Assembly (NCBI RefSeq): GCF_032818155.1
Contig: NZ_CP102590.1
Location: 310,001 to 374,000 of the forward strand
Source of the DNA: Niallia taxi
GTDB lineage: Bacteria > Bacillota > Bacilli > Bacillales > Cytobacillaceae
DNA: 64,000 nt
Reading direction: 5' to 3'
Each line of letters starts with the position of its first letter. Position 1 is the stretch's first letter. The position numbers and the translations under genes are program-made. This document shows, piece by piece, positions 4,995-51,110 of this stretch. The notes beneath the pieces are model-generated. The model ran no database searches, was not told the DNA's origin, and was given only the letters and a program-made list of their open reading frames with translations.

Positions 4995-4995
4995 T

Positions 4996-5922: not shown

Positions 5923-6198
5923 AAATCTCCTTTCATTATATTATTATATTATTCATAAATTTCCTTGTAAACTATAATTTGGTAAAAAAACAGTAAATTG
6001 GTAATTAGAGACTGAGTATACTAGTAAAAAGGGTCTAGACATATTCAAGTTTAATATAAATGAAGTAAGCAGAAAAACATTCAGTATGGGTAAAAAAAGA
6101 GCAAGAATTATTAAATGGGAATTATAGCTTTACATAAGTAACGAGTTAAAGCGCATTGAATTCAACTCTCCTTGCATGCAGATATCTTAAATATGCAA

Positions 6199-25520: not shown

Positions 25521-26534
25521 TTAAGCACCTAGTAAAGTTTGATCAAAAGCAAACAATGCTTCATTTATTTGGTGAATATTATAATTGCCCTGCTTGATAA
25601 AATATTTGATAATTACATCAAATATACTACTATGTGACAATGTATATCCTGCAGCAGACAGTAAGTCGTTTGTTTCATCTACATTTAGATGTAAAGCGAT
25701 GGCAAAGGCAATAGCTGTTTTCTTTTTAGGCGAGTAACCCAATTCATTCCGAATTTTCGAAAATAAGCGACGATCAATATTTGCTCTTTTATAAGTCTCA
25801 ACATCTGTCATTTCTCTTTCATCAATCATCCTAAGTAAACGTTCTGAAAAAGACTCATCAAGTTCCTCTACTAGATGCAGTAAGCTACTTTCGATTATGA
25901 TTTCACTCTGTTTTACCTGGATTTCGTCCGATATTATCTCAGATTCTAGCAATGGTTCATTAGTAAAATGTTCGATACGACGACTGAAATTAGCCTCTAC
26001 TTCCTCTACATAATTCTCATCTATATATTCATTAATTGATTGGAATAAATGTTGACTTAACCCAAATGACGTTTTATCAAAAACGACTAGGTAAACATGC
26101 ATCTCATGATTCACTAAAAATTCACTAATCGTAGATACAGCAATTTGTAATGCCTCTTCTTTTGGATATCCTGAGAAGCCTGCTGAAATGAGTGGGAAGG
26201 CAACTGACTCACATTGATATTTTTCAGCTAGTTCCAGAGAATGAGCATATGAATTCTTCAAGAGTTCTGCTTCCCTATAAGAACCACCCTTCCACACTGG
26301 TCCTGCTGTGTGAATGATATATTTGGAAGGCAACCGAAATCCATTCGTTATAATGGCTTGGCCAACTGGACAACCACCTACATCATCAAATGCTTGTTTC
26401 AGCTCAACCACACCGGCAGCTTGAAAAATAGCTCCACTAACGCCTCCGCCTATTTTCAATTCTGTATTTGTGGGATTCACAATCGCGTCTACCTTCATCT
26501 TCGTAAGATCCTGACGAACAATTTCCAATGGCAT
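25521..26534 (-). CDS. Macro-domain protein with a C-terminal helical domain
   Basis: A 337-residue protein. Residues 1-165 are a macro domain, which binds or hydrolyses ADP-ribose groups: VDAIVNPTNTELKIGGGVSG, HTAGPVWKGG and FPLISAGFSGYP mark the ligand loops. A linker leads to a helical domain at about 225-335 (RLLRMIDEREMTDVETYKRA, then FSKIRNELGYSPKKKTAIAF) found in other Firmicutes macro proteins, perhaps an HTH fold. It forms a likely two-gene unit with the vWA protein downstream. It may reverse or read ADP-ribosylation; no ADP-ribosyltransferase was seen nearby. Confidence 0.85.
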   Translation of the reverse strand: MPLEIVRQDLTKMKVDAIVNPTNTELKIGGGVSGAIFQAAGVVELKQAFDDVGGCPVGQAIITNGFRLPSKYIIHTAGPVWKGGSYREAELLKNSYAHSLELAEKYQCESVAFPLISAGFSGYPKEEALQIAVSTISEFLVNHEMHVYLVVFDKTSFGLSQHLFQSINEYIDENYVEEVEANFSRRIEHFTNEPLLESEIISDEIQVKQSEIIIESSLLHLVEELDESFSERLLRMIDEREMTDVETYKRANIDRRLFSKIRNELGYSPKKKTAIAFAIALHLNVDETNDLLSAAGYTLSHSSIFDVIIKYFIKQGNYNIHQINEALFAFDQTLLGA

Positions 26535-34495: not shown

Positions 34496-34531
34496 AGAAA
34501 AAGAGCCTTTCCTTATTGAAGGAAAGGACTC
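34496..34531 (-). terminator. Terminator of the type I restriction operon
   Basis: Minus strand: GAGTCCTTTCCTT, a 4-nt loop, AAGGAAAGGCTC, then TTTTTC. It lies about 400 bp after the last gene of the operon. The sequence between 34532 and 34927 holds no gene I can support. Confidence 0.75.
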
Positions 34532-34927: not shown

Positions 34928-37789
34928 TTAGTAACTAGATACAATTTGACTTTCAAGTTTTTTATCTTCTGAAAATATTTGTTTTTCAACTCTTCTCAAT
35001 TCATCATTCAACCAGACTACTTTTTCGTCCAACTCATTCTGCCAATCCCGTTTCATTGCTTGGGGATACTTAATTGGATTAGCTTCCGGATTTTTAAGTT
35101 TATATCTTTCAAATTTTTTGCTATTAATCACACTCCCAATATTAGGAGTTTCCTTAATGCCTACATCGTACTGTATAGCCGATAGTTTTAGTTCTTCTTC
35201 CGAAACAAACCACTTTTCAGAAAATTCTTTAATAACTTTATCCAGAGCATGTTTAAAAAACTCACGCTTAAGGTCTAGTATATCTTCTTTTGATTTTAAT
35301 TTTGTATGTTTAATCTCTTTCACTATTTCATGATAAGTTTCAATTACAATTTTAGCTTTATTTTGTTGCTCCAAATACTCAAAAAGTTCTTGAGGCTCAG
35401 ATATAGTTGCAGTTGAGTATTCAAATAACAAATTATCACTAGTTGAGTATATATTATCATTTTTATATGTAGTAGATTTTCTCTGCGAATCATATTCATC
35501 ATTTTGTTCTAAACTATCTACATCATGTTCTATAATAAAACCTTTCTGCTTAAAATTTCGAATTTCCACTTCTATTTTAGTACTTATTTCTTCTAGAAAT
35601 TCTTCAACAATTGATTGATTTGTTAAATTCGATAATTCTAGAAACAAATTTTGATACTTAAACAATATTTTTTTATCTATTAATCCTTCTAAATGACTAT
35701 AGAATTGAATTTTTGGTTCCCTATTCTCTATATAATATTCTTTTATTGATTTAACATCTTTATCCACAATAAATTTTGTATCATTTGAAAAAACATCTAA
35801 AATAACATCAACAATAAGCTTACGGCATGAAGTCATTTGATCTGGAGTTTTCAAATGAAAGAGTCTAAGTCTAGGGAAACCAACTGCCACTTCATTACTT
35901 CTCATAATTGATGAGAGATTAAAAAACTCATCAGAATAACCTATTACAATTATTTCTTCGATTTTGTTTCCTACTGTAATTTTAGGAACAATACCAGATG
36001 AATGATCAACTTGTAACTTTTCCAAATCTTTTAAGTGAATCTCTTCTTGTTCAATATTTATATCTGTTATTAAGATATTGAGCTCTATTAAATTTGTTGA
36101 TTTTTCAAAAACATTTTTCTCAATTACTAGATTAGTATTTCTTTTTACTGTTAATTTTTCAATATGATTCTTTGTATCTGATTTAATATTGAAAAATCCA
36201 TTTCTTTCTTCTATGGTATTAGTTGTAAATGAGCAATCAATTATTTCAAGCCTATTCAATGACTCACATGAAGATATATCTACAGTTACATTATTCTCAC
36301 TCACTAATGTGCAATTTTCCATACTAATATATGACAAACTGCTACCATTAGCCAAAAGTTGAATGAAAAATTCACTATCTATTTCTGTATTAGAAAAGAT
36401 AACCTTTTCAACCCATTTTAGTAACATTAAAAAATCTTCAGAGTTAGTAAGTTTTTTAAATTCAGTTGAATCTATTGTTTTTTCAAAATAAATACGATTT
36501 ATCCTAGAAGCACTTTTATTGAACATTATACTTTTTGATATATAGAGAACTTTTTCTATGTTGCTCTCGTTTATTCTCAATTCCTTAATATTTTTAAAAG
36601 TAAAGTGGTTTATAGTTAACGACAAGTCAGAAAATATATCTTCATCTGGAAATTTATTTGGTAAAAAAGAATTTATTGTCTCATATTCTTCATAACTAGA
36701 TACGATTTGTTTATCCTGTAATAATATTTCTAAGAAAGGAACCAACACAATTTTCTCAGCAACTGAAGATCCAAATTTCTTCAAAATTTCTTCCATCTTA
36801 AAAATGTAATCATCTTCATAATAAAACAAAAATACTTTGTCTGCTCTTTGAATTAATTTTGACAAAAATAGAAAATCACTACCTTGAAGAGAATGTCCTA
36901 TAATAAATAAATCTTTTCTTACATCTTCATTGTTCAAATCAATGGTAGACATTATCCTTGTTCTTGTTGCATTTAATAAATCATTTTCCTTAATTCTAAA
37001 CAACTTATCATTTATTAAAGACTGAGAATAATGAATCCTATTAATATCCTCGCTATCAGTAAAACCACCGCCAAATAAAATGTTTTCTTCTTCTAAACTT
37101 CCGTGTATATGAAAAATTCTTCCTTCTTTCGCTTTCTTCACTTCTGTACTAGATTGCGCTAGTTCAGAATGATAAAGTACACTTTCACATAGATCCCCAA
37201 TTGTGTTCGTATAATTAAAATTTATAAAAAATGTATTTTCATCTTTAATCATTTTTTTAAAAAAAGGGTTCACTTCTTCTGTAAATCTTTTGTAACCAGA
37301 ATTCCCAATAGAAATCGTCTTCTGTTCTATCCACTTAGGATATTCATTTAAAAGATATTCCTGAAAATCTTCTTCTAAACTTTTAATAGAATTATTTATG
37401 GACGTTATATCAAATAAATCTTGCGGTTCTTCATTTTTCTCAGATCTGTTATTTATTTTTCTTACAGTTTCTTCATATAAACTTTCGAAATCAGACCAAT
37501 TCAAATGGAATTTTTCATACTTTCTTAAGAAAAGCCTATTATAATTATATAATTCATAATCTTTAACAAACCTTTTACTACCCTTAATGTATTCAATGAA
37601 ATTCTGGTATGAACTTTTTAGACCAAGACTCATATCAAATCCGTTTCCAACAATAACTATATTCTTGTATTTATACTTAAGATTCCCTTTGTCCATTAAA
37701 CTGTTTCCGATAATTTCTATATTATTCAAACTATTTTTATCTATCTTTTCTTGACCTTCTTTGTTCATAATACAGCTCCCAATAACCAT
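34928..37789 (-). CDS. AbiH-like protein with repeat region fused to an HsdR C-terminal domain
   Basis: A 953-residue protein with three parts. (1) Residues about 40-370 resemble phage abortive-infection protein AbiH: NIVIVGNGFDMSLGLKSSYQ near residue 43, INFNYTN, HIHGS, ILFGGG and IIGHSLQGSDFLFLSKLI. (2) Residues about 380-700 are leucine/isoleucine-rich with irregular repeats such as LEIIDCSFTTN and LKDLEKLQVDHS, like leucine-rich repeats. (3) Residues 811-932 align without gaps to residues 931-1052 of the HsdR encoded just upstream (58 of 122 identical by hand), including KEDIL, ELxLSAIQY and MKRxW. It starts 37 bp after hsdR and is the last gene of the operon. An alternative start 7 codons in (GGGAG site) is likely. 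AbiH causes phage abortive infection; here the tail suggests docking on the HsdM/HsdS complex. Confidence 0.8.
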   Translation of the reverse strand: MVIGSCIMNKEGQEKIDKNSLNNIEIIGNSLMDKGNLKYKYKNIVIVGNGFDMSLGLKSSYQNFIEYIKGSKRFVKDYELYNYNRLFLRKYEKFHLNWSDFESLYEETVRKINNRSEKNEEPQDLFDITSINNSIKSLEEDFQEYLLNEYPKWIEQKTISIGNSGYKRFTEEVNPFFKKMIKDENTFFINFNYTNTIGDLCESVLYHSELAQSSTEVKKAKEGRIFHIHGSLEEENILFGGGFTDSEDINRIHYSQSLINDKLFRIKENDLLNATRTRIMSTIDLNNEDVRKDLFIIGHSLQGSDFLFLSKLIQRADKVFLFYYEDDYIFKMEEILKKFGSSVAEKIVLVPFLEILLQDKQIVSSYEEYETINSFLPNKFPDEDIFSDLSLTINHFTFKNIKELRINESNIEKVLYISKSIMFNKSASRINRIYFEKTIDSTEFKKLTNSEDFLMLLKWVEKVIFSNTEIDSEFFIQLLANGSSLSYISMENCTLVSENNVTVDISSCESLNRLEIIDCSFTTNTIEERNGFFNIKSDTKNHIEKLTVKRNTNLVIEKNVFEKSTNLIELNILITDINIEQEEIHLKDLEKLQVDHSSGIVPKITVGNKIEEIIVIGYSDEFFNLSSIMRSNEVAVGFPRLRLFHLKTPDQMTSCRKLIVDVILDVFSNDTKFIVDKDVKSIKEYYIENREPKIQFYSHLEGLIDKKILFKYQNLFLELSNLTNQSIVEEFLEEISTKIEVEIRNFKQKGFIIEHDVDSLEQNDEYDSQRKSTTYKNDNIYSTSDNLLFEYSTATISEPQELFEYLEQQNKAKIVIETYHEIVKEIKHTKLKSKEDILDLKREFFKHALDKVIKEFSEKWFVSEEELKLSAIQYDVGIKETPNIGSVINSKKFERYKLKNPEANPIKYPQAMKRDWQNELDEKVVWLNDELRRVEKQIFSEDKKLESQIVSSY

Positions 37790-37826
37790 CTAATGTTCTT
37801 TCATCAATTTGTCTAAAATAGATCAT

Positions 37827-40800
37827 CTAACGTAATTCTTTATCCAAAGGTACAATTACTTCATCTAAAGTTTTTCTCCACTGGCGCTTCATTTCCGGCC
37901 CGTATTTCAATGATTTTGCTTCAGGATGTACAGCCTTATACTTATCAAATTGCTTGCTATCGATGATTCCCCCCATATTCGGAATAGGGTCTGTTCCTAT
38001 CACATATTGAATCGCGGATAAATGTAGCTCATTTTCTTGAACAAACCAAGTATTCGCAAACTCTTCAATCGCTTTATTATAGGATTCAGTAAAGAAGCGT
38101 CGTTTGACTACAAGAATATCTTCCTTAGTATCTATTTCTTTGCCATCAATAGCATTTAAAATTGCACGGTATACACTTTTAACAATTTCTGATTTCTTCA
38201 ATTTTTGAAGTGCTTTTTCAATTTCGTCACGGATATTCTGATTATTGGCTGAGTACGTTCCTAATAGTTGATCAATATAGGTGGAGTCAATATCATAAAT
38301 CTTTATTGTATTTTCTCCATAGAATTCAATGTCTGATAAATCTGGAGTAGGTCCATCTTGGCCCCTTTCCTCTACTAGTGAACCCTTGATCGTGTTATAT
38401 ACACCAATATATTCCTCTAAGGTTTTCACCTGTTCTTGAAGTGCCTTTGATTTTTCCATATCATCGTTGTAATCATCATACGTAACTAAAGCTTCGTAGG
38501 CATTGTTTAACTTTTGGAATGCCTTCACAAATTCAACCCGAGTTTCAAGAGTTGAATGCTCATTAATATCGGTTGGATATGGAACTAATGTTGTTAACGC
38601 TTTGTGAGCCTTTTTAAAGCGTTTCTTCGATTCGTCATATGTTGGATACACAAGATTAGTTTCCTCTTGTGCTTCAGAGTATAACTTCGTGGCATCCTTT
38701 ACATTTTGTTCCATCGTTGAAGGTTTTCGGAATGTCACAATCAATCCTTTTGTTTTTCCTGGATAGGTACGATTGGTTCGTGAAAAGGCTTGAATCAAAT
38801 TAGCATAACTCAAACTACGGTCCACAAATAATGTTTGAATGGTAGGTGCATCGAATCCAGTCAATAAGCGATCTACAACAATGACAAGGTCAACATGTTT
38901 CCCAAATTCTTTGAATTCTGCTTTCTTACGAGCTAAACGATTATTGATATCTCCATTGTATCGTTCAATATCTTCTATCGACCAAGCAGTGTGATAATAA
39001 TCGTTATAGTCCTTGATAATTTCTTTCATTTCATCTTGAATTTGTTTGGAATTTTCTTCGTTTTCTTGAATCGAATAGGTGATGGAAACCCGTGGGAAAT
39101 CTGGATCTTCAATCGTACGCCCCGTTCGAATCGGATGTCCTGCAAATTCTTTCGTTAACCAGTCAGGATCTTTAGTCATTTTCTTAATTGCATGATAGTA
39201 GCGTTTCGCCATATCAATAGAACTTGTTGTTAATATGGCAGACTTTTGTGGGCGACCGTTTTGGAAATCAAATTTGATATAGGCATTATCCGGTCGAAAA
39301 ATCTTATGAATGACTTTTTGAATATGTTCATCACTTTCAAAAGAAGATGGTTCAAGATATGCTTCCTTTTCTCTTCCATCCATTTTATCAATAATGTCGT
39401 TAATTTCATGGTTAGTAAAGCTGGCATATTTCTCTATTTGACGAAGTTGATTAAAAATATAATTATTTAATGATGTTGGTTCAATCGTATCTTCGTGCTC
39501 TACTTGAAACCCTAAAACAGCATTATCATCCAAAGCATTCTTAATGGTATAGGTGTGCAAGACTTCTCCATATTGATCATGAGTGGTCCGAGCTAATTGG
39601 CCTTTAGCTTGTTTCTTGTTTTCCTCAAATATCGGTGTGCCTGTAAATCCAAACCATGTAGAATTTGGAAAAAACCCCTTGATCGCTGCCATTCCTTCTG
39701 CACTCAGCGCTCGATGGCATTCATCCACTACAAATACTATATGTTGTCCCACTAGTTTCTTAAAGCGCTGAGTACCTTGTTGTTCTTCTAGTCTTTGAGC
39801 ATAGCGTAAGGCAGATTCTAATTTTTGACGAGTGGTAATAATCACTGTATTTGAATTAGCATCCGATAAAAGAGTTTCACTTAATTTTTTCGCACTTCCG
39901 GTTCCGACAACCAAGCTATTAGATTTGGCAGCCCCTGAAGAAATACCAGTATTAAACTCGGAAGCAAATTTTGTGAATTCTGATGTCGTTTGATTATCTA
40001 AGTCTTTACGGTCAATAAGCATAATGGTACGATCTACACCGGGTTTGCGAGCTAATAACTTTGTAGAAACAAAACTGGTCAACGTTTTACCTGAGCCAGT
40101 CGCATGCCATACAAACCCTGATTGATGTTTCATGGCAGATGTAAATAAAGCTTCAATGGCATGAATTTGATAAGGGTGTAAAACCATTAATGCTTTGTTA
40201 TCTTGGTCCTCACTCACAATCGTATAGTGAGCAATCAATCGATGCGCATCTGGAATATTTAAAACTTGTTTCACAAATTCATAGAGATTTTCTACCTTTC
40301 GGTTGTCTGTAGTCCGCCAACTAAAAACAAATTTCTTATGCATATCTTTTGGAAGCGCATTAGCAAAATAGCGGGTAGTTTGTTCATTGGAAATAACAAA
40401 TAACTGTAGAGTAGAAAAGATATTATTTCTAAACATCCCTTCTTCTGCATATTTCTTGATTTGATTAAAGGCTTGGAATACACCATCTTTGGCACTGACC
40501 TGTTTCAATTCAATTTGAACAATTGGCAACCCATTGATTAAAAGTGTCACGTCAAATCGACGATCACGACCATCTACGCTTGTCTTTTGTTTCGCAATCT
40601 GATGAACAACTTCGTACGTAGAAATTCCACCACCAATATCCTGGTTGGAGTACAACACCAACGACATGGAACCTAGAGATATATCTTCACGTTCAATCGT
40701 AATTCGAGAGATTCCATTTTCCCCTTTGAGCCATCTAGCAGCATCAAAAGGTGTTTGTGTTTTTAAAAGGATTTCTGTTTTAATAGTTTCAAATTCTTTA

Positions 40801-40985
40801 TCAGAAATGGGATATTCTCCAATTTCTGATAAGTTATTTTGCGTAATCTTTTGACGCAAATTATTCCACAGGTCTTCTTCTGATTTTAAATCCGGACGGT
40901 AATTCCACTGATTATGCCCTTCCCCTAATACTTCAATCAGTTGACGTTCCACTTTAGCTTCATCATTATGTGGTATCTTTGTCAT
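37827..40985 (-). CDS. hsdR: Type I restriction enzyme, R subunit
   Basis: A 1052-residue motor and nuclease subunit of a type I restriction-modification complex. The nuclease core shows Asp145 in RRFDVTLLING and E159-L-K in VQIELKQ, followed by a QxxxY-type motif near 171-179. The translocase has Walker A ATGSGKT (295-301), the DECH box (421-424) and FTGTPIF. The C-terminal helical domain (about 800-1052) is where R subunits contact the methyltransferase; its last 122 residues recur in the next gene. It cuts unmethylated foreign DNA after translocation. It lies 23 bp after hsdS. Confidence 0.95.
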   Translation of the reverse strand: MTKIPHNDEAKVERQLIEVLGEGHNQWNYRPDLKSEEDLWNNLRQKITQNNLSEIGEYPISDKEFETIKTEILLKTQTPFDAARWLKGENGISRITIEREDISLGSMSLVLYSNQDIGGGISTYEVVHQIAKQKTSVDGRDRRFDVTLLINGLPIVQIELKQVSAKDGVFQAFNQIKKYAEEGMFRNNIFSTLQLFVISNEQTTRYFANALPKDMHKKFVFSWRTTDNRKVENLYEFVKQVLNIPDAHRLIAHYTIVSEDQDNKALMVLHPYQIHAIEALFTSAMKHQSGFVWHATGSGKTLTSFVSTKLLARKPGVDRTIMLIDRKDLDNQTTSEFTKFASEFNTGISSGAAKSNSLVVGTGSAKKLSETLLSDANSNTVIITTRQKLESALRYAQRLEEQQGTQRFKKLVGQHIVFVVDECHRALSAEGMAAIKGFFPNSTWFGFTGTPIFEENKKQAKGQLARTTHDQYGEVLHTYTIKNALDDNAVLGFQVEHEDTIEPTSLNNYIFNQLRQIEKYASFTNHEINDIIDKMDGREKEAYLEPSSFESDEHIQKVIHKIFRPDNAYIKFDFQNGRPQKSAILTTSSIDMAKRYYHAIKKMTKDPDWLTKEFAGHPIRTGRTIEDPDFPRVSITYSIQENEENSKQIQDEMKEIIKDYNDYYHTAWSIEDIERYNGDINNRLARKKAEFKEFGKHVDLVIVVDRLLTGFDAPTIQTLFVDRSLSYANLIQAFSRTNRTYPGKTKGLIVTFRKPSTMEQNVKDATKLYSEAQEETNLVYPTYDESKKRFKKAHKALTTLVPYPTDINEHSTLETRVEFVKAFQKLNNAYEALVTYDDYNDDMEKSKALQEQVKTLEEYIGVYNTIKGSLVEERGQDGPTPDLSDIEFYGENTIKIYDIDSTYIDQLLGTYSANNQNIRDEIEKALQKLKKSEIVKSVYRAILNAIDGKEIDTKEDILVVKRRFFTESYNKAIEEFANTWFVQENELHLSAIQYVIGTDPIPNMGGIIDSKQFDKYKAVHPEAKSLKYGPEMKRQWRKTLDEVIVPLDKELR

Positions 40986-41008: not shown

Positions 41009-42187
41009 TTATACAAACATTTTTTGTTGAAATGCTTTTTTAGTTTCTTTTAAGGCATTTAATTCACGTTGATGAAGAGCGATCGTGTCGTCTATTTGTT
41101 TGAAAAAGTTGCCGATTTTGGTTTGTTCTTCAAAAGATGGGGATTTCATTCTAAGATTTTTTAGTTCACTCGCTTTTACAAGCGGTTGCCCAGTGCCAAA
41201 TGATAGCTTTTTTAAATCAAAATTATTAAGTAGTGGATACAAGAAAGATAAGTTATTACCCTTGATAAATACAGTATTATCAGTGATTTTCACTTTTCCA
41301 TAAGATCGATAAAGATTACCAGCATTTGCACCTACACGTGCAGTGAGAATAAAATCTCCCTCATAATCAAACTCACTATCATATCCAATGATAGAAGTAG
41401 ATCCTAATATTGCATAAGGATTATCAGCAGATTTTTTATGTTTTATAAACGAGCTTTTCCCAGTACCAATACTATCAGTTATATCTGATAACTTACGTTG
41501 TTCCCAATCTCCGGTAAATTCAGGAAAGCGAATCTCTGGCACGGACTCCCCTTCTTTTGGGAACATTTTTTGCATGAATCCCTGTTTTATTTGTTTGAGG
41601 ATGATTAGTTCTTGCTGATAAAGAGCGATCGTGTCGTCTAGTTGTTTTAAAAAGATACCGATTTTGATTTGTTCTTCTAATAACGGGACCATTCCTTCAA
41701 ATTTTAGAAGGTTCGTTACGCTAATTCCAAATACCTTCATTCCTGTACCTATCTTGTAACCATACTTCCTGAAATTTGGTGAATTAATCAAATAGTAAAG
41801 AAACAAAGGATCTACTTGTTTTGGTCTCAAAGCTATTGTATGGAGGCCAGAAACTAACTTGTAGGGAATATCTATCGTAATCACAGCAGGTGTGGCTATT
41901 CCTTGATAATCTTCAGAAGCATCAGCTACTACTATATCCCCCTTTTCCAGCAGTTCGTAATTTCCAGCTTTTATATTCGGCAAATCGCTAGACTCATCTA
42001 TTAGATCTGCAACTTTTGTATGGATATCACCATAATGAATGTACTTGTATCCTGTATATTCACTCGTCTCGACATCACGAGATAAAGAGAATGATTTCAC
42101 CCTATCCACTATTGATTCCAATTTCCGCTGATCCCAATCTTTAGTAAACCCAGTAAATCGAATTTCTGGTGTAAGGTTATTTTTCAC
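41009..42187 (-). CDS. hsdS: Type I restriction-modification system, S subunit
   Basis: A 392-residue specificity subunit with two target-recognition domains, each led by a conserved start (EIRFTGFTKDWDQRKL at residue 9 and EIRFPEFTGDWEQRKL near 218). The two spacer repeats are KIGIFLKQLDDTIALYQQEL and KIGNFFKQIDDTIALHQREL. The two halves give the two parts of a split recognition site. The N-terminus overlaps the end of hsdM by 11 bp. The recognition sequence cannot be read from the sequence. No inverted copy of either half was seen nearby, so phase variation by inversion is not suggested. Confidence 0.93.
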   Translation of the reverse strand: MKNNLTPEIRFTGFTKDWDQRKLESIVDRVKSFSLSRDVETSEYTGYKYIHYGDIHTKVADLIDESSDLPNIKAGNYELLEKGDIVVADASEDYQGIATPAVITIDIPYKLVSGLHTIALRPKQVDPLFLYYLINSPNFRKYGYKIGTGMKVFGISVTNLLKFEGMVPLLEEQIKIGIFLKQLDDTIALYQQELIILKQIKQGFMQKMFPKEGESVPEIRFPEFTGDWEQRKLSDITDSIGTGKSSFIKHKKSADNPYAILGSTSIIGYDSEFDYEGDFILTARVGANAGNLYRSYGKVKITDNTVFIKGNNLSFLYPLLNNFDLKKLSFGTGQPLVKASELKNLRMKSPSFEEQTKIGNFFKQIDDTIALHQRELNALKETKKAFQQKMFV

Positions 42188-43769
42188 GCTTAAACACCTC
42201 TAACGCACCCTTAATCCATTCTGCGTTTTCTTCATCAAATTGTAGCGAAGAAATCATGTCATATAGGTTAGATTCTAGTTCTGCTTTTTCTTTTCGAATG
42301 TCTTGAATGGTTGAGCCGATTGTAGCCATATCAACAGGCGCTTCTTCTTCAAAGGTATCTACATACCTGGGAATATTCAAATTGAAATCATTCTCTTTAA
42401 TTTCATCAAAGCTAGCAATGTGGGCATATTTATCCACATCTTCTCGCTTCTTATAGGTTTCGACAATCTTTTCAATGTTTTCTTTGGAGAGTTTATTTTG
42501 ATTCTTTCCTTTCGTAAACGCCTTACTTGCATCAATAAATAAAACATCCCGAGTGGTACGATTTTTCTTCAAAATGATAACTGTTGTTGGAATCGATGTC
42601 CCAAAGAATAAGTTTGCTGGCATGCCAATAACGGAATCAATACTGCCATCTTCTAATAATTTCTTACGAATTACACCTTCTGCAGCTCCACGGAACAGTA
42701 CTCCATGTGGTAAGACAATTGCCATTGTTCCCGAATCTTTCAAATGATAGAACCCATGTAAAAGAAAAGCAAAGTCTGCTTTTGATTTTGGCGCTAATTT
42801 CCCATATCGGTTGAAACGAGAATCATCTAAGAAAGTATAATCTGAAGACCAATTTGCAGAGTATGGCGGATTCATTAGGACGGAATCAAAGGTATAAGGC
42901 TGATCTGTCGGCCAATCTTTATTCAATGTATCCCCATTGCGTAAACGCATATCTTCTTTATCAACACCATGCAAAATCAAGTTCATCTTAGCTAGATTAT
43001 AGGTCGTTGTATTTAATTCTTGTCCATGATACTTTACATTATCTGGATAGTTAATGTAGTTTCGAATATTTAACATCAAGGAACCTGATCCCATCGTTGG
43101 GTCAAATACACTAAACAATTTTTTGTCCTCTTGACCAATTGCAGCAATACGAGCCATCATGTCAGATACTTCATGCGGTGTATAGAATTCACCAGCTTTC
43201 TTACCGGCTTCTGAGGCAAATTGACCTATCAAAAACTCATAGGCGTCCCCAATGATATCGCCATTATGTCCTAGCACATCAACATCATTTAGTTTCTTCA
43301 GAACTTCCGTAAGGGTAATGTTTCGTTGTTGGTCATCTGATCCCAATTTTTTTGATTTCAAGTCTACATCATCAAATAATCCATTAAATTGTTCATATTT
43401 CGTAGACAAATCGATAAAGGCTTTATTCAAGTCATTCAACTGAAACGTGTTTTGCTTAGCTTCGTCGGTTAATACATTAAATAAATACTTTGGTTCTATA
43501 TCATAGCCCAATGTATCCACTAACGTTTCAATCAAGTCATTTTTCAGCTCTCCATCTGCTAATAAATCTCGATACAACCCGGTTTGTTTTTCTGGTTTGT
43601 TATATTCTTCTAGCGATTCATCTGCTATTTCGACTACTTTTTCTAACAACCTATCAGATAAGTACTTATAAAAGATTAATCCTAATAAGTAGTTTTTATA
43701 TTCTGATGCATCCATTTTGCTACGCAAGTTGTCTGCGGCACTAAATAATTTTAAGTTTAATTCAGCCAT
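42177..43769 (-). CDS. hsdM: Type I restriction-modification system, M subunit
   Basis: A 530-residue N6-adenine DNA methyltransferase. The SAM-binding motif FDPTMGSGSLML is at 222-233 and the catalytic motif IV NPPY at 300-303. The N-terminal helical HsdM_N domain (NLRSKMDASEYKNYLLGLIF) and GEFYTPHEV before motif I are typical. With two copies bound to one HsdS it modifies host DNA and forms the core to which HsdR binds. It is the first gene of the operon hsdM-hsdS-hsdR-AbiH fusion. Confidence 0.95.
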   Translation of the reverse strand: MAELNLKLFSAADNLRSKMDASEYKNYLLGLIFYKYLSDRLLEKVVEIADESLEEYNKPEKQTGLYRDLLADGELKNDLIETLVDTLGYDIEPKYLFNVLTDEAKQNTFQLNDLNKAFIDLSTKYEQFNGLFDDVDLKSKKLGSDDQQRNITLTEVLKKLNDVDVLGHNGDIIGDAYEFLIGQFASEAGKKAGEFYTPHEVSDMMARIAAIGQEDKKLFSVFDPTMGSGSLMLNIRNYINYPDNVKYHGQELNTTTYNLAKMNLILHGVDKEDMRLRNGDTLNKDWPTDQPYTFDSVLMNPPYSANWSSDYTFLDDSRFNRYGKLAPKSKADFAFLLHGFYHLKDSGTMAIVLPHGVLFRGAAEGVIRKKLLEDGSIDSVIGMPANLFFGTSIPTTVIILKKNRTTRDVLFIDASKAFTKGKNQNKLSKENIEKIVETYKKREDVDKYAHIASFDEIKENDFNLNIPRYVDTFEEEAPVDMATIGSTIQDIRKEKAELESNLYDMISSLQFDEENAEWIKGALEVFKREK

Positions 43770-44264: not shown

Positions 44265-44322
44265 TGGATTTGAGTCAATATTTTAGACACAAAAAAGTTA
44301 AGTACTACGCTGATTGTTTCAT

Positions 44323-45170
44323 TTAATTTTCCACTGTCTGTGGAGTATTGTAATCCAAACTACTATGTATTCTTTTTCTGTTGTACCAACCTTCAATAAA
44401 TTGAAACATCGCTAGTTTGGCTGTGTGGTAGTCTTAATATTGTTCATGATTTACTTCTTCTTTTTTTTAAATAGCGTGAAAGGACTCGATACAGGCATTA
44501 TCATAAGGACAACCTTTTTGGCTAAATGATTGAATAACACCACAAGATTGAACGTATTGCATAAATGCTGAGCTAGTGTATTGTGAACCTAAATCTGTGT
44601 GTAGAAGTAAACCTTAGCTGGCTTTTGAGTAGAGTAAGCGTTTCCTAAAGCGGTCATTACTAAGTCTGTTGTCATGGAACGTGAAAACGAAAAACCTACA
44701 ATTTTCTTGAAATGTAAATCCATTACGGAAGCCAGTTAACACCATCCGTCTCTTATCGTGTGAATGTAGGTGATATCTGCGACCCATTTCTCATGGATAG
44801 TGGTGGTCGAAAAGTCTCTATTTAATAGGTTCTTACGTTCCATCACTTTTTCTCGGCTGGAGTACGGTCGGTATTTTTTCTTGGTGATCAAACGGATTTT
44901 CGCTCTTATCATGAGTCGCTGTACACGTTTTAAACTCACAGAGAGCCCACTTTTTAGAAGTGTTCGATTTATTTTATCGTTCTCTACTCTCTTAATGGAT
45001 TTGTATTATTTTCTTGGTTATCGCATGATTTTCATGTTCACGGGTGGACTCTGTTTTCTGTAAAGAATGGTAGTATGTACTTCTCGGAACAGCTAGTACC
45101 TCACACATCATTTGAACCGAGTAATGTTTTTTGTGTACCTCCATAAAATTGGTAAGCTCTGTATCGGTTA
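44323..45170 (-). pseudogene. IS3-family transposase orfB, inactivated
   Basis: Recognisable pieces of the DDE integrase: HEKWVADITYIHT with the first catalytic Asp, then the sense of HTDLGSQYTSSAF, CPYDNACIESFHAI and, near the end, EGWYNRKRIHSSLDYNTPQ followed by TVEN and TAA at 44323. At least two in-frame stops (in the KKEEVNHEQY segment) and several frameshifts interrupt it. It cannot make an active transposase. Confidence 0.8.
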
Positions 45171-45443
45171 TTTTTCCGCGAATATGTCCATAGCCTTTTT
45201 TAGGATTTCAATCTCTTGTTTTAACCGAAGGTTCTCCTTTTGAATGGCAGCCAACTCTTTAGGAGTGAGGGATTCTTCCCCCGTTCCAATAGGAGTAAAA
45301 TCCTTAATCCATTTATAAATAGTCACTTCAGAAACGCCATATTCGTTGCTTAATTCTTTCACAGAGGTACCGGAATGATATAAATCCACAACTGTTCTTT
45401 TCAAATCTTCATTATATTTGTTGCTTGTGTTATTACGTTCCAT
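45168..45443 (-). CDS. IS3-family transposase orfA (HTH protein)
   Basis: A 91-residue protein: an HTH region (SVKELSNEYGVSEVTIYKWI) followed by a leucine-zipper-like coiled coil (KENLRLKQEIEILKKAMDIF). It normally joins orfB by programmed frameshift to form the transposase. ATG at 45443 is preferred over one six codons earlier. It is intact, but its partner orfB is broken, so the element should be unable to move by itself. Confidence 0.85.
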   Translation of the reverse strand: MERNNTSNKYNEDLKRTVVDLYHSGTSVKELSNEYGVSEVTIYKWIKDFTPIGTGEESLTPKELAAIQKENLRLKQEIEILKKAMDIFAEK

Positions 45444-46200: not shown

Positions 46201-47961
46201 TTATAAGTTCCGACAAATAATAACCCCATCTCTCCCCCTAGTAAGCAACACTCTATAAACATTAAGCTTAAGCTGTTCAGGATTTTCAGCACCCTTTCTT
46301 AAATATTCAGCCTTCCACTTTCCGTTTTCCCAGCTTAAATCATTTCCCCAACACACTATGGCCATATCCAGCTCAAGTCCTTGAACTTGAAACTCTGTTG
46401 CTGCATAATCTAACCTTTTGCAATAATATTCAGACTCTGGGTAATTAAAATATTCTACATGCGCTTTTGGTATCACATATCGAGCAGAAGTTGGTACTAG
46501 TTTTACACCTTTTGGATATTTAATGCTTGAAGAGGCTACAATGCCATATGTTTTATCTGTTCCTTTATATACTTTTTGCACATATTCTTTTGCCTCTTGT
46601 AAATTATCTACAATCTTTAACGTGAATCGTTCTTTTCTTAGTTTTTCTTCTAGTATTTTGCACTTTTCTCGATCATTATTAATAAATGCCTCTACCCATT
46701 CGAAATACATTAATGCATTGTGTGTTCTAAGGGAAGTATTCAAGTGTAATTGTTGATTTTCATGATATGAATAAGCGTTTGAAAAGACCTGTTGATGGTG
46801 CTTTGCGTGTACATGAAAGCTTTTATCTTTGATTGCTTCATTCCATAGGCCAATGCCACCTTCCTCTCCAATGTGGATCTCTTGACCTTCGCCTATTAAA
46901 CCTACAACAACTGACCATGTCTTTTGTTTAGCAATTTCTATCATTACATCTGGTTCGCTTTTATTGATCTTCATCCGCTTTGCATCCCAGGCTCGTTGTG
47001 CCTCATCAAAGATGAGGACATGTTCTTCTGGTACACGGTTATACTTGAGATAATCTGTTTTATATCCATATAGAGCTTGTACAAATGTCTTATTTTTTAG
47101 ACTGTCTTGTAGGACATCAACAAGTGGGCCGTTTCCAGATAAATATACTGCTTTGTCTATTTCATGAGCTAAGGTTAAGCCGACAAAGGTTTTACCTGCA
47201 CCTGGGACACCTGAAACTAGCACTAGGTGATGCGTTTGATTTTGTTTAGCCATTTCTATAATTGATTTCACTTCTGCAACTACTGTATTAAAATTACTAC
47301 TTTTCAATGTTTTTATTTGTGGGAGAGGCTCATCCCTCATAATTGCTCGGGCAGATTCAATAATCGTCGGTAAAGGCTGATACGTCCCCTCTAAAAATTG
47401 CTCTGCTGAGATCAGGGAGTTAGCTGTAATATGCTTTCCAACTCTATTAGTTAATTCACGTAGCCCTCTTTTTCCCAATTGATACATCTGGTAATCAGGG
47501 ATTTGTTGAAATTCCTTCTCCTCAGTTGTTACAACAAGAGCTCCCCTGACCTTTAATGCAAATTCTTGTACGGCTGAATGGTACTGCTGTATGTCTCGAA
47601 TATAGAATGATGTTTGTGCATATTCTGGGTCATTCACATTAGAATATCTTTTAAATTCAAGCACTAATACTTCTTCAGGTAAAAATAGCAATACATCAGG
47701 ACGGCGTCGACCGCTTCTTAATATTTCATATTCAAAAATTAAAAACCCAGGCATATGCTTAAAATAAGGTATTTCTTCCTTCAAGTAAGCGATACAATCA
47801 TACCAGGATTTTATTTGAGAAATGGTACTCTCCTCATTAGGATTTTGTTTTGCTTCTTTTGAGGTTTGGTTATATATATGCATACAAAGACTATTAACAA
47901 TTTCATCTCTGTCAGCTTCAATAAAATCCACTAAGCTGCCTTTCCATCCGAAGTTATTCAT
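46201..47961 (-). CDS. PD-(D/E)XK nuclease fused to a DUF2075 helicase
   Basis: About 586 residues. Near the N-terminus RRPDVLLFLPEEVLVLEFKR has the Asp and E-F-K of a PD-(D/E)XK nuclease (about 89-104). Then a DUF2075-type helicase: Walker A SGVPGAGKTF (about 250-259), Walker B LIFDEAQRAWD, LNTSLRTHNALMYFEWVEAF, and the final NVYRVLLTRGRDGVIIC motif VI. ATG at 47961 overlaps the stop of the HNH-Nudix gene by 8 bp, a sign of translational coupling; a GTG 18 bp upstream is less likely. Such helicase-nucleases occur in phage defence islands. The joint role with the HNH protein is inferred. Confidence 0.82.
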   Translation of the reverse strand: MNNFGWKGSLVDFIEADRDEIVNSLCMHIYNQTSKEAKQNPNEESTISQIKSWYDCIAYLKEEIPYFKHMPGFLIFEYEILRSGRRRPDVLLFLPEEVLVLEFKRYSNVNDPEYAQTSFYIRDIQQYHSAVQEFALKVRGALVVTTEEKEFQQIPDYQMYQLGKRGLRELTNRVGKHITANSLISAEQFLEGTYQPLPTIIESARAIMRDEPLPQIKTLKSSNFNTVVAEVKSIIEMAKQNQTHHLVLVSGVPGAGKTFVGLTLAHEIDKAVYLSGNGPLVDVLQDSLKNKTFVQALYGYKTDYLKYNRVPEEHVLIFDEAQRAWDAKRMKINKSEPDVMIEIAKQKTWSVVVGLIGEGQEIHIGEEGGIGLWNEAIKDKSFHVHAKHHQQVFSNAYSYHENQQLHLNTSLRTHNALMYFEWVEAFINNDREKCKILEEKLRKERFTLKIVDNLQEAKEYVQKVYKGTDKTYGIVASSSIKYPKGVKLVPTSARYVIPKAHVEYFNYPESEYYCKRLDYAATEFQVQGLELDMAIVCWGNDLSWENGKWKAEYLRKGAENPEQLKLNVYRVLLTRGRDGVIICRNL

Positions 47962-49438
47962 GGTTTCTTCCTTTTCCACCTGTAATTAAGCTGCTAACAG
48001 TGTTTCTATCCAAAAGTTGATTAACGATTGGGCATTGTAATGGCAAAAAATCTTCTATAGTCAATCTACTTAGGTTTATAAATTGTAGCTCTTTGTAGTT
48101 GAAGTCTTCATTTATATTTTTAATATTATAGGCCATAACTCTGTAAATCTCGGAACCTTCCTTATAAATACCTTCACCAAAATATTTACCCAGCTTTAAT
48201 CTCATACCGAAAGCTTCTTTTAATTCACGACGTAATGCTCTTTCAGGTGTATCATTTGTTTTTAATCTCCCGCCTGGAAGCTTCCACTTTTGATCAGCAC
48301 AGCTTTCTAATAATATTTCTCCTTGATTTATTAGTATTCCAACTACTACTGTAGTAACCTTAGCAGCATGGTGAAATTCACGATGACAATTTGGACATAG
48401 CGCAACCGCATTTGCGACTGTATCCTCTCCACCTTCTGCAAGAGGTATATTGTGGTGCACCTCTAAATATGGTGACAGGTCACTTGCTCTGATGAAGGCT
48501 GCTGGCTTGCGGCATTTTTCACAAACACCATTTGCACGAGTTAAGACCTCTGCTATAACATCTGGATTTCGTTTAAACTGTGTTAAAGTAACTACTGATT
48601 TTTCAGGGATTTTCCCAGCATTGCTTAAGCGATTTCTTCTTTGTTCACGCGTCTCTCTCTTTGAATTATCTACTTTCTTTCCTAATTCATTGTTAAATTC
48701 TTCTATAGTCATTAATTTTTTCGTGTCTATAGTATTAACTTTATGAAGTAGAAACCATCTTGACTCATCCTCAGGATTACTGTGGTCACTTTCATATCTA
48801 TAAATCCCTTTTAATGTTAATCTTGTATCATCTTTCTGGAAAACATAAATCGGAGTATTAGTTCTTACTGAATTTATAATCGCTGCATTATACTTATATT
48901 CCTTTTTGAAAACACTCTTCAGACTATACATATAGTATTTTAGGACGTTATTGCTTTCAATCCATTCATTGGGGTATTTACCTTCCGCAAAGGTAGCTTT
49001 AACAAAAATTGCTTGATAATTTGGTTCATCCCCAATAAGATAAATACCTGATTGTGTATCATAGGTTCGTGAAAATATTGAAATATCCCATGACGTATAT
49101 TCACTCCCAATCACAAAGTCATCAAGCACTGTAACATCGTCAATGTAATTCGCAAACTTTTGTACAAACTCTGGGTAAAGGTCTTCATATGTTTTAAGGT
49201 TCAATCCCTTAAGTCGATCATATAGTTCTCTTTTTGGATCTCCAGCAGGTGGAACAATTTCGAACCTCTTCAAGTATCTATTTAAATCACCAATTTTTTT
49301 CATTCTATTCACTAAAATTTTAGTGCGTTTTACTTTGCTCTTAAAAGAATCCTCTAAATCTGGCTGTTCTAGTGCAGGATCCTCTACTTCCTCCACTACA
49401 TATTTTATTGCATCTTCTATATTCACTGGTGGTGCCAC
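47954..49438 (-). CDS. HNH endonuclease fused to a degenerate Nudix domain
   Basis: 494 residues in three parts. Residues about 115-235 (SWDISIFSRTYDTQSGIYLI, then FVKATFAEGKYPNEW and RLTLKGIYRYES) may be an SRA-like DNA-reading domain. Residues 306-357 are an HNH nuclease: CEKC, EVHHNIPLAEGGEDTVANAV and CPNCH. Residues 362-480 form a Nudix domain (VTTVVVGILINQGEILLESC, KWKLPGGRL). The Nudix box 390-412 fits GX5EX7REUXEEXGU except Asp at 396 for Glu and Ala at 409 for the last catalytic Glu. Two such changes make hydrolysis doubtful. It is translationally coupled to the DUF2075 helicase gene. A role as modification-dependent restriction enzyme is inferred. Confidence 0.8.
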   Translation of the reverse strand: MAPPVNIEDAIKYVVEEVEDPALEQPDLEDSFKSKVKRTKILVNRMKKIGDLNRYLKRFEIVPPAGDPKRELYDRLKGLNLKTYEDLYPEFVQKFANYIDDVTVLDDFVIGSEYTSWDISIFSRTYDTQSGIYLIGDEPNYQAIFVKATFAEGKYPNEWIESNNVLKYYMYSLKSVFKKEYKYNAAIINSVRTNTPIYVFQKDDTRLTLKGIYRYESDHSNPEDESRWFLLHKVNTIDTKKLMTIEEFNNELGKKVDNSKRETREQRRNRLSNAGKIPEKSVVTLTQFKRNPDVIAEVLTRANGVCEKCRKPAAFIRASDLSPYLEVHHNIPLAEGGEDTVANAVALCPNCHREFHHAAKVTTVVVGILINQGEILLESCADQKWKLPGGRLKTNDTPERALRRELKEAFGMRLKLGKYFGEGIYKEGSEIYRVMAYNIKNINEDFNYKELQFINLSRLTIEDFLPLQCPIVNQLLDRNTVSSLITGGKGRNHE

Positions 49439-49570
49439 CTCTGTTAAAAAAATTTTGTAATTGAAAACTAATTTATATAAGATTAAGCATAATTATTAGT
49501 TAAGAAAATCCTATCTATTTAAAGAGCCATTTGTAATAGGTAATAACGATCAGTATTATTATTCTAATAC

Positions 49571-49605
49571 AAAAAACTCGACATATTTGTCGGAATATGT
49601 CGAGT
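49571..49605 (-). terminator. Strong hairpin terminator, minus strand
   Basis: Perfect 12-bp stem ACTCGACATATT / AATATGTCGAGT with a 6-nt loop, followed on the minus strand by TTTTT. Confidence 0.8.
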
Positions 49606-49728
49606 CGAGCAGGGTGATTTTAATTGTAAAAATTAATTTAATTTAAAAATGTATTAAATAATGAATACTTAAATATTCTGTATAATAATTAACGAATACT
49701 CATTAAATTCCGTAAAATATTTATTAAG

Positions 49729-49761
49729 AAAAAAACTACGAATTTAAAATCGTAGTTTTTG
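49729..49761. terminator. Bidirectional terminator after mcrC
   Basis: Perfect 11-bp stem AAAAACTACGA / TCGTAGTTTTT with an 8-nt loop, T-runs on both strands, 81 bp after the mcrC stop. Confidence 0.8.
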
Positions 49762-49841
49762 ATATTTTCGATATTTGAAACATTATTTTTGTTTAGTTAA
49801 AGTCACCTTTATTTATAAAAGAAATAAACAGAAATTATTTC

Positions 49842-51110
49842 TTAATACCCGTTTATTTGAAGTATATTTTTAAGTTCTTCTGTAGTTTTCCACTTATTCT
49901 CTAAAGACAACGAATACACTTTTAGCTTTTTCTGTTCATCTACATGTAAATACCAGGATTCATGTTGTATATCCTCATCAAAGCCAATACCTAATTGTTT
50001 TGGATATAATAATATTGCAGTTTGAGCTCGTTCGTACCTTGTTAGATAAGCGTACATTTGAAATAGGTCTTCCCGTTTAACTCCTGAACGATTTCCTTTT
50101 GTTAACGACTTCCATTTTGTATCAATTATAATTTGTGCTTCTCCATTATCAATAACTACGTCCGGCTTTAACTGAAATATATCTCGATTATTATTTTCCT
50201 TTACTAACAGTCGGTATTTGTTATGCTGTTCAAAAACAGTGTACTCCGTTAATTTCTTCACTAAAGATGCGATGTACTTTTCAAATAGATCGTTCATTTC
50301 AAAAAGAAACGAAAAAGAAGTTTCTTTATTTGCACTAAAACTAGATGTTATATTCATTAAAAATTGCTTTGCTAGCAATAAAGGCAATGCAAACCTTTTA
50401 TTTGTTCGATCTAATTTTATCCTCGATAATTCTATTTTGGAAAATAACTTATATCTTACTCCATCCAAAACATGATCAATTTGTTTTAACAACTTTTGAG
50501 TCTCTAAATTATTGATATATTTTAGCAGCACTCTATTAGCTGCAATAAATATTTGATTCAGTTCATGGTCAATTATCTTTTCTTCATATTCACAGTAAGC
50601 CATATATTTTTTATTCCGGCTTAAATTCTCTTTAATATGATCCGAAATAACTAGAGCACCTTTTAAAGTGGTTAGATTTTTTTCTATTTGTAAGTATTTC
50701 GTCGTAACCCCTTTACTTAATTCTGAAGATAAACTAGATGCGTAAATACGACCAAATATCTCAAGTAAAGACCCATTCACTAATTGAAGTTGTGCTAAGC
50801 TCGTTGTAGTAACATTTATGTATCCACTCTCATTTAGCATTTCAATTAATACATTTCGCTGTTGAATAAAATCATTGTGGATTGCCACCTTTGGCAAAAT
50901 TTCAATAGAAAAAGTCGAACACTGAATATAACCAACATAATTTATAAAAGTGATACTCTTATTATCCCAACTTATATATTCTCTTTTTATGTTTTCATTT
51001 CTAATAAAATTTGCTAACTCATCAGCTTCAGATTGTGATAAAGTATTCACCCCACCATTTTCAGTAATATTTAAAACATCGTGACATTCAGTTATAACGA
51101 TTTTCTTCAT
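49842..51110 (-). CDS. mcrC: McrC-like nuclease subunit of a McrBC restriction system
   Basis: A 422-residue protein. The N-terminal part fits McrC (SFSIEILPKVAIHND, then HIKENLSRNKKYMAYCEYEE), followed by a PD-(D/E)XK nuclease: FQLKPDVVIDNGEAQIIIDT and KWK give the Asp and D-x-K residues. McrC stimulates McrB GTP hydrolysis and cuts DNA that carries modified cytosine. The gene overlaps mcrB by ATGA (4 bp). Confidence 0.88.
   Translation of the reverse strand: MKKIVITECHDVLNITENGGVNTLSQSEADELANFIRNENIKREYISWDNKSITFINYVGYIQCSTFSIEILPKVAIHNDFIQQRNVLIEMLNESGYINVTTTSLAQLQLVNGSLLEIFGRIYASSLSSELSKGVTTKYLQIEKNLTTLKGALVISDHIKENLSRNKKYMAYCEYEEKIIDHELNQIFIAANRVLLKYINNLETQKLLKQIDHVLDGVRYKLFSKIELSRIKLDRTNKRFALPLLLAKQFLMNITSSFSANKETSFSFLFEMNDLFEKYIASLVKKLTEYTVFEQHNKYRLLVKENNNRDIFQLKPDVVIDNGEAQIIIDTKWKSLTKGNRSGVKREDLFQMYAYLTRYERAQTAILLYPKQLGIGFDEDIQHESWYLHVDEQKKLKVYSLSLENKWKTTEELKNILQINGY

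Follow-up and report, generated by a model that had tools for sequence, protein, structure and literature searches.

The stretch analysed here, 64,000 nucleotides (nt) of the Niallia taxi contig NZ_CP102590.1 (positions 310,001 to 374,000 of the forward strand; hereafter the window), carries a type I restriction-modification (R-M) operon whose last gene encodes a fusion of an AbiH domain, a middle region that may resemble leucine-rich repeats (LRRs), and a C-terminal tail homologous to the end of the HsdR protein encoded next to it (Table 1). Pfam bears out the layout given in a preliminary description of this DNA, namely, hsdM-hsdS-hsdR-AbiH fusion, with the fusion as the fourth gene and all genes on the minus strand. 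The closest solved relative of the window HsdR is the HsdR of EcoR124I. The fusion probably begins at the ATG at 37768 (residue 8 of the frame), giving a protein of 946 amino acids (aa); a GGGAG lies seven bases upstream of this ATG, and many homologues begin there. Between the hsdR stop and the first ATG of the fusion frame lie 37 nt, and the corresponding gap is 0 nt in Enterococcus crotali (locus L015) and 1 nt in locus L016; such short gaps suggest coexpression.

Table 1. Features of the hsd operon and of the fusion gene in the window
Feature	Coordinates	Strand	Description	Evidence
hsdM	42177..43769	minus	530 aa, N6 adenine methyltransferase subunit	PF02384 E=2.3e-108, PF12161 E=1.4e-24
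hsdS	41009..42187	minus	392 aa, specificity subunit	PF01420 E=2.3e-30, 2 stretches
hsdR	37827..40985	minus	1052 aa, full-length restriction/motor subunit	PF04313, PF18766, PF22679, PF12008 (EcoR124_C 779-1031)
HsdR residues 905-1052	37830..38273	minus	C-terminal part common with AbiH fusion	BLASTP 65/148 vs fusion residues 785-932
AbiH - LRR-like - HsdR tail fusion gene	34928..37789	minus	953 aa; likely start ATG 37768	
AbiH / SIR2-like putative effector domain, residues 44-340	36770..37660	minus		PF14253; SIR2_2 profile 93.0%; invariant motif residues
LRR-like region, about residues 401-690	35720..36589	minus		6/10 solved-structure profile matches are LRR proteins; LxxLxL excess
Variable linker, residues 691-784	35438..35719	minus		mean identity 35% (21 pairs), lowest among parts measured
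HsdR-like C-terminal tail, residues 785-932	34994..35437	minus		BLASTP to neighbouring HsdR; Bacillus-type HsdR profile 100%, score 369
Terminator-like hairpin, downstream of operon	34506..34527	minus		hairpin scan: 4 found, 4.3 expected by chance

Domain content of the fusion protein

The tail aligns to the neighbouring HsdR without a gap at E=8e-33. The preliminary description had counted 58 identities in 122 positions from residue 811 onward, which is exact; the remaining 7 of the 65 identities precede residue 811, as the match begins 26 residues earlier. The common part corresponds to the distal half of the EcoR124_C domain of HsdR plus the very end of the protein, and a profile of HsdR tails matched a solved structure of a putative type I R protein fragment (3evy, E=3.7e-5). 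In the organism's own genome, no match to the fusion protein was found besides the HsdR tail.

The N terminus is an AbiH domain, as proposed: PF14253 matches residues 44-317 at E=2.7e-26, its 93.7 bits lying well above the curated cut-off (30.9), and the motifs GNGFD, FNYTN, HIHGS, and GHSL are all present. AbiH is the only Pfam domain in the fusion, and the nuclease and SF2 motor domains of HsdR were not found there. PADLOC, including its AbiH model, assigned no family to the fusion at E 0.1, and this AbiH model does match the tail-less relatives L108 and L078 (loci that we fetched are cited by such numbers). No model in Pfam, PADLOC, or NCBIfam covers the whole fusion.

By profile comparison, the AbiH domain is SIR2-like. 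In hhalign, a profile of tail-less AbiH proteins (42 proteins, of which the program used 38) matched a SIR2_2 profile (22 of the 24 proteins found, one having been left out as too short and one as below the cut-off) at 94.9%, and the AbiH domain of the fusion family itself matched it at 93.0%, while control profiles of HsdM, HsdS, and HsdR reached 2.7% at most. A profile of the LRR-like region matched the fusion AbiH profile at 89.8% along 34 columns where the two cut-outs adjoin, and so cannot serve as a clean control at that place; its match to the tail-less AbiH profile was 0.5%. The alignment pairs FNYT with TTNYD, HIHG with KxHG, and GHS with GYS. Among 61 aligned members (drawn from 72 after exclusion of short, partial, and near-duplicate ones), G48, N49, G50, D52, N192, Y193, T194, H229, G230, G298, H299, S300, and D305 are invariant. 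N192 and H229, both among these, correspond to the presumed catalytic Asn and His of SIR2 NADases. By analogy with known families, the domain probably has a SIR2-type activity, most likely NAD+ breakdown. The literature that we found holds no demonstration of NADase activity for AbiH; a 2012 paper predicted AbiH to be a Sir2-superfamily enzyme and also tied Sir2 enzymes to R-M of type I (PMC3506569).

The stretch joining AbiH to the tail is conserved among the homologues, and several weak signals suggest that its part from about residue 400 to 690 may be LRR-like. Residues 341-690 hold 18 LxxLxL stretches, compared with 11.3 in shuffled sequences (standard deviation 3.0; 46 of 2000 shuffles as high), with no clear single period and with 3 of the 18 at residues 347-352, ahead of the region called LRR-like. 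When a profile of nine middle regions was compared with solved structures (E up to 1), the 10 matches comprised 6 LRR proteins (a repebody at E=0.005; BRI1-like 2, SKP2, and SOBIR1 at E 0.34-0.99) and 4 PA26 entries; the single sequence matched just two F-box/LRR entries at E=4, and no Pfam LRR model matched the fusion.

These parts differ in how well they are conserved. Over the 21 pairs among seven operons, mean identity is 71% for AbiH, 56% for the LRR-like region, 35% for the linker, and 49% for the tail; in the same operons, it is 82% for HsdR residues 1-778, 71% for residues 779-904, and 70% for the HsdR tail, and HsdM averages 86% over 15 scorable pairs of six operons. Within the tail, 67 positions are conserved in at least 95% of 124 HsdR sequences (that of the window and its closest relatives among the matches listed). 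Of these, 32 (11 of 31 polar and 21 of 36 nonpolar ones) also occur in 80% or more of 52 fusion tails, with HsdR 986-1010 as the best-retained stretch.

Occurrence of the fusion and its place in hsd operons

A search of 5.8 billion proteins returned 71 homologues of the fusion, mostly from Bacillaceae, Paenibacillus, Lysinibacillus, and Enterococcus and about 890-970 aa long, together with a group of streptococcal type, about 850-880 aa in length and with 25-27% identity. One member comes from Bacillus subtilis (P0019). The tail of the window HsdR was matched by 52 of the 71 in BLASTP; the remaining 19 comprise one fragment (P0041), shorter tail-less proteins, and streptococcal-type members with a diverged tail. 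The largest cluster among the homologues above 40% identity, P0057 from Enterococcus faecalis (773 aa, 70 member sequences), has the AbiH domain and the LRR-like region, ends in the linker, and is missing the tail.

Ten loci with a tailed gene were available, namely, the window, L012-L018 (from a genome scan keyed on AbiH motifs rather than hsd genes, which also gave L019), L020 (from a scan of viral contigs), and L079 (from a streptococcal genome). The preliminary description had expected the tailed gene beside hsdMS and not far from it, and hsdM, hsdS, and hsdR are indeed clustered with it in 10/10. A replacement of HsdR by the fusion is ruled out, since all ten operons keep a full-length open hsdR frame. 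In the Bacillus/Enterococcus type and in L018, the genes run M-S-R-fusion; in L017 and L079 they run R-fusion-S-M, and these two have further genes interspersed in the hsd cluster. Five more fusion/HsdR pairs, the two partners of each being listed with contigs of equal length, probably lie on the same contigs (P0014/P0099, P0012/P0121, P0013/P0096, P0045/P0079, and P0020/P0093). E. crotali L015 has its hsdM in two overlapping frames (4464-6058), with hsdS, hsdR, and the fusion open. The AbiH gene in L019 (494 aa) is tail-less and yet adjoins hsdR, hsdS, and hsdM.

The fusion is rare. In collections with one genome per species, which yield few loci, the genome of the window alone carries it among 201 relatives and among 398 genomes of its class, and E. 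crotali alone among 22 genomes of that genus; other matches in these scans were HsdR tails or weak AbiH matches, and a first genome scan with the single fusion protein gave no match. Six Bacillus-type hsd operons in relatives of the window's genome lack the fusion (L126-L131), indicating that it is optional; genes resembling serine recombinases on visual inspection lie close to three of these operons (L126, L127, and L128). The closest relative fetched, L020 (73% identity), comes from IMG/VR, and PHROGs identify an integrase-like gene and an HNH gene on its contig, so that the operon may be carried by a mobile element. L020 is the one viral contig record with at least 80% of the fusion; no record with 80% was found among 72,556 plasmids or 50,697 phages, where the best among the matches listed cover the tail alone.

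AbiH without the tail provides a background rate for this linkage. In the order of the window, AbiH exceeds the cut-off in 13/299 genomes, and none of 11 tail-less loci (12 genes; two partial matches left out) has an hsd gene in the fetched 5-18 kb. In the genus of Streptococcus rubneri, AbiH exceeds the cut-off in 43/197 genomes, and 23 of 46 AbiH genes lie in hsd operons (tailed, 2/2; tail-less, 21/44; partial matches in G274, G245, G236:C19, and G222 left out). As the hsd models can miss other types, these linkage counts are lower bounds. Five streptococcal tail-less AbiH genes (L107, L109, L111, L113, and L115) adjoin hsd genes whose HsdM, HsdS, and HsdR belong to a third and more distant type, the order being AbiH-M-S-R.

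No third protein type with an HsdR-type tail was seen in searches with the tail region and with the HsdR tail, which covered close tails in proteins of 0.55-1.75 times the query length. The former gave 18 matches (14 AbiH fusions and 4 HsdR) and the latter gave 463, of which the best 120 all have HsdR domains. Short tail frames in L086 and L184-L188, considered as separate tail proteins, turned out to be pieces of broken hsdR genes; the one in L087 runs to the contig end, around that in L189 no frame was recognised by the models used, and a 56-aa tail frame in G144 was left out of this comparison.

Around the operon in the window, the space before the next gene (about 44300-45440) holds a degraded stretch that by eye resembles an IS3-family transposase. 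A defence island lies upstream (46201-53548), with a McrBC-like pair at 49842-53548, a Schlafen-type helicase at 46201-47979, and an HNH-NUDIX protein at 47954-49438. Polymorphic toxin-like proteins are encoded at 57366-59327 (LXG with a DNA/RNA non-specific endonuclease) and 19420-21168 (pre-toxin TG with Tox-HNH), and a Macro-domain protein (PF01661, E=4e-37) is encoded at 25521-26534, about 8 kb from the SIR2-like domain. Macro domains handle ADP-ribose. No Rfam match was found in the window.

Relation of the tail to HsdR types

The HsdR proteins of the streptococcal type are just 35-38% identical to that of the window, and the type of a tail goes with the type of HsdR in its operon. In profile-profile comparisons (15 streptococcal-type fusion tails, 30 streptococcal-type HsdR tails, 59 Bacillus-type fusion tails, and 20 Bacillus-type HsdR tails), the streptococcal-type fusion tails matched the HsdR tails of their own type at 97.0% with a score of 71.5, compared with 39.5% (score 32.6) for Bacillus-type HsdR tails and 47.5% (score 35.1) for Bacillus-type fusion tails. 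This far better fit to their own HsdR type is the basis for saying that the tail follows the operon. For the Bacillus-type fusion tails, the match was 100% (score 369) with HsdR tails of the Bacillus type and 97.4% (score 80.8) with those of the streptococcal type.

In a tree of 37 tails taken from the 124 profiled, the fusion tails of the Bacillus type group with the HsdR tails of that type in one clade (98/99). A topology in which all fusion tails are monophyletic could not be rejected (p-AU 0.125, with a long-branch warning), and hence two captures, or repeated capture or re-matching of the tail, are likely from these sequences and not proven.

A possible guard of restriction

Effectors that watch over R-M enzymes have precedents. 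A review names PrrC and PARIS "RM guardian systems" that react when restriction is inhibited (PMC12707154), and PrrC, the anticodon nuclease embedded in the type IC R-M operon of EcoprrI, is described as an effector of abortive infection that has its gene within a type I hsd operon and is held latent in the R-M complex (PMC3014915). The fusion resembles PrrC-EcoprrI in that an effector gene is encoded within a type I hsd operon at all ten tailed loci, and in 18/23 streptococcal hsd operons with AbiH this gene lies between hsdR and hsdS, as does prrC. It differs in that the fusion gene of the window comes last, after hsdR, and in that PrrC combines an ABC-type NTPase with a tRNA nuclease, whereas the fusion combines SIR2-like, LRR-like, and HsdR-tail parts; Pfam found neither an ABC NTPase nor an anticodon nuclease domain in it. 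PARIS is likewise a guard of restriction, and AriAB-like proteins occur within streptococcal-type hsd operons, but neither the AriA ATPase nor the AriB DUF4435 was found in the fusion by Pfam or PADLOC. With the AbiH of Lactococcus and Streptococcus it shares the N-terminal domain, but the models of that family span 260 (Pfam) and 343 (PADLOC) positions, whereas the fusion has about 900-970 aa with the LRR-like region and the tail. The type IC enzyme EcoR124I is represented by the 148 C-terminal residues common with the window HsdR, which has EcoR124_C, but the fusion is without a nuclease or motor domain. To the SIR2 NADase effectors DSR2, ThsA, and SIR2-APAZ, the likeness lies in the SIR2-like profile and in the aligned NYT/NYD and HIHG/KxHG motifs; to our knowledge, their regulatory parts are unrelated to those of the fusion.

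The preliminary description knew of no described system with this arrangement. That stands for the HsdR tail on AbiH, of which we found no description among the papers listed on AbiH with R-M, SIR2/NADase, or HsdR, where subscription papers were mostly outside coverage; it does not stand for the wider idea, given PrrC-EcoprrI and PARIS as known guards and the prediction in PMC3506569 of the links from AbiH to Sir2 and from Sir2 to type I R-M. Abortive guards linked to R-M are thus already known, and the grafted HsdR domain seems new. Other possible guards occur in such operons. PARIS-like AriAB fusions are encoded in streptococcal-type hsd operons at L069 (2210-9520) and L187 (9740-11647), and L069 also has a tail-less AbiH, making two possible guards in one operon. 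An Abi-P2-type reverse transcriptase lies inside the hsd operon of L086 (4787-6442), whose hsdR is split into two frames. Streptococcal-type operons also carry a KAP NTPase (L071) and DUF6119 (L017), and in L130, a Bacillus-type operon without the fusion, an AAA_21/AbiL-like gene takes the fourth position.

The best explanation in our judgment, to which we give an even chance, is an abortive-infection guard tethered to the R-M complex in the manner of PrrC and PARIS. The SIR2-like AbiH domain would be its effector, probably acting through NAD+ breakdown; the LRR-like middle would serve as a sensing or regulatory scaffold; and the tail, as a copy of the distal domain of HsdR, would dock on the cognate HsdM2-HsdS, beside HsdR or competing with it. 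We infer that an intact restriction complex would keep the effector silent, and that a phage anti-restriction factor occupying or disrupting the docking site would free it and bring about cell arrest; latency, trigger, and arrest all belong to this inference. What the sequences show is the domain content, the operon, the architecture across the family, and the tracking of the HsdR type by the tail, which lends docking indirect support; the docking role and the SIR2-type chemistry are extrapolated from known families. The interpretation in the preliminary description, an effector that docks on the methyltransferase or senses a blocked complex, is supported in part.

Several observations weigh against this explanation. 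Of the 23 hsd-linked streptococcal AbiH genes, 21 are tail-less, and the frequency of AbiH in these operons even without the tail means that the tail is not needed for the hsd link. Within the Bacillus type, the tail is no closer to its own HsdR than to those of others (seven operons), and the tails of L017 and L018 score 32.3 and 31.2 bits against their own HsdR and 37.4 and 34.3 bits against each other's. The fusion tail evolves faster than the tail of HsdR itself (49% versus 70% mean identity), and conserved HsdR positions are retained in it at a mean of 0.55 for polar and 0.70 for nonpolar residues, both of which also fit relaxed constraint. Equating the tail with the assembly domain of EcoR124I is not secured from these sequences: Pfam EcoR124_C gave no match reaching E=1 on the fusion, and the HsdR-tail profile found no EcoR124I chain among solved structures. 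A very weak colinear match (0.5 bits) places the common part at EcoR124I from about residue 892 onward, and the crystal structure covers residues 13-892 (PMC4454674). The assembly domain of EcoR124I is presumably what follows residue 892, and a docking role of exactly this piece of HsdR is likewise presumptive. Overall, a tail that keeps a core motif yet drifts faster than its HsdR original is compatible with weakly constrained docking or with a decoy.

The homology of the tail, its tracking of the HsdR type, and the operons with an intact HsdR would serve equally well if the methyltransferase, bound to unmodified phage DNA, recruited the fusion through the tail beside or instead of HsdR, so that unmodified DNA itself would be the trigger; the conserved LRR-like region could then be purely structural. 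We regard this as unlikely: ordinary restriction of unmodified DNA would presumably often set off a costly arrest, and what PrrC and PARIS, the guards already known, react to is the inhibition of restriction (PMC12707154). The tail might instead be an integrated decoy that mimics an HsdR surface hit by phage anti-restriction proteins, with the LRR-like region relaying the binding of the bait to the SIR2-like domain. The domain order of effector, LRR-like region, and bait would suit such a device, as would a tail that evolves faster than its original yet follows the HsdR type. However, no phage partner was apparent in this analysis, and the phage antirestriction proteins that we know of act on the methyltransferase or its DNA site and not on the tail of HsdR; we consider a decoy improbable.

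We see a similarly small chance that the tail is a leftover of recombination with the neighbouring hsdR, useful for folding, stability, or oligomerization, on an ordinary AbiH that works alone. Tail-less AbiH proteins are numerous and include the close relative P0057, and the tail diverges quickly. However, the tail is kept in 52/71 homologues, including those of Bacillaceae, Paenibacillus, and Enterococcus, the two tail types each fit their own HsdR type best, and hsd clusters stand at every tailed locus versus none of the fetched tail-less AbiH loci in the window's order.

A broader reading, possible and in our view doubtful, is that the fusion is a bacterial counterpart of the plant immune receptors that contain an integrated decoy. 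Its single chain would then combine a SIR2-type effector with an LRR scaffold and a captured C-terminal domain of HsdR, and at least two type I families would have acquired or re-matched that piece independently. If that were true, any phage factor attacking or displacing HsdR would be registered directly by the receptor.

How cells notice a disabled restriction enzyme is known for few guards. Here, the connection between guard and enzyme seems to be written in the sequence, in that the putative effector carries a piece of the enzyme and two distant tail types each fit best with their own HsdR type, and the question of how abortive systems watch R-M enzymes may thus be turned into a direct binding and displacement test. 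AbiH, which protects Streptococcus thermophilus against phage by a mechanism listed as unknown in PMC12322248, gains a likely SIR2-type chemistry, and type I operons are marked as carriers of exchangeable guards.

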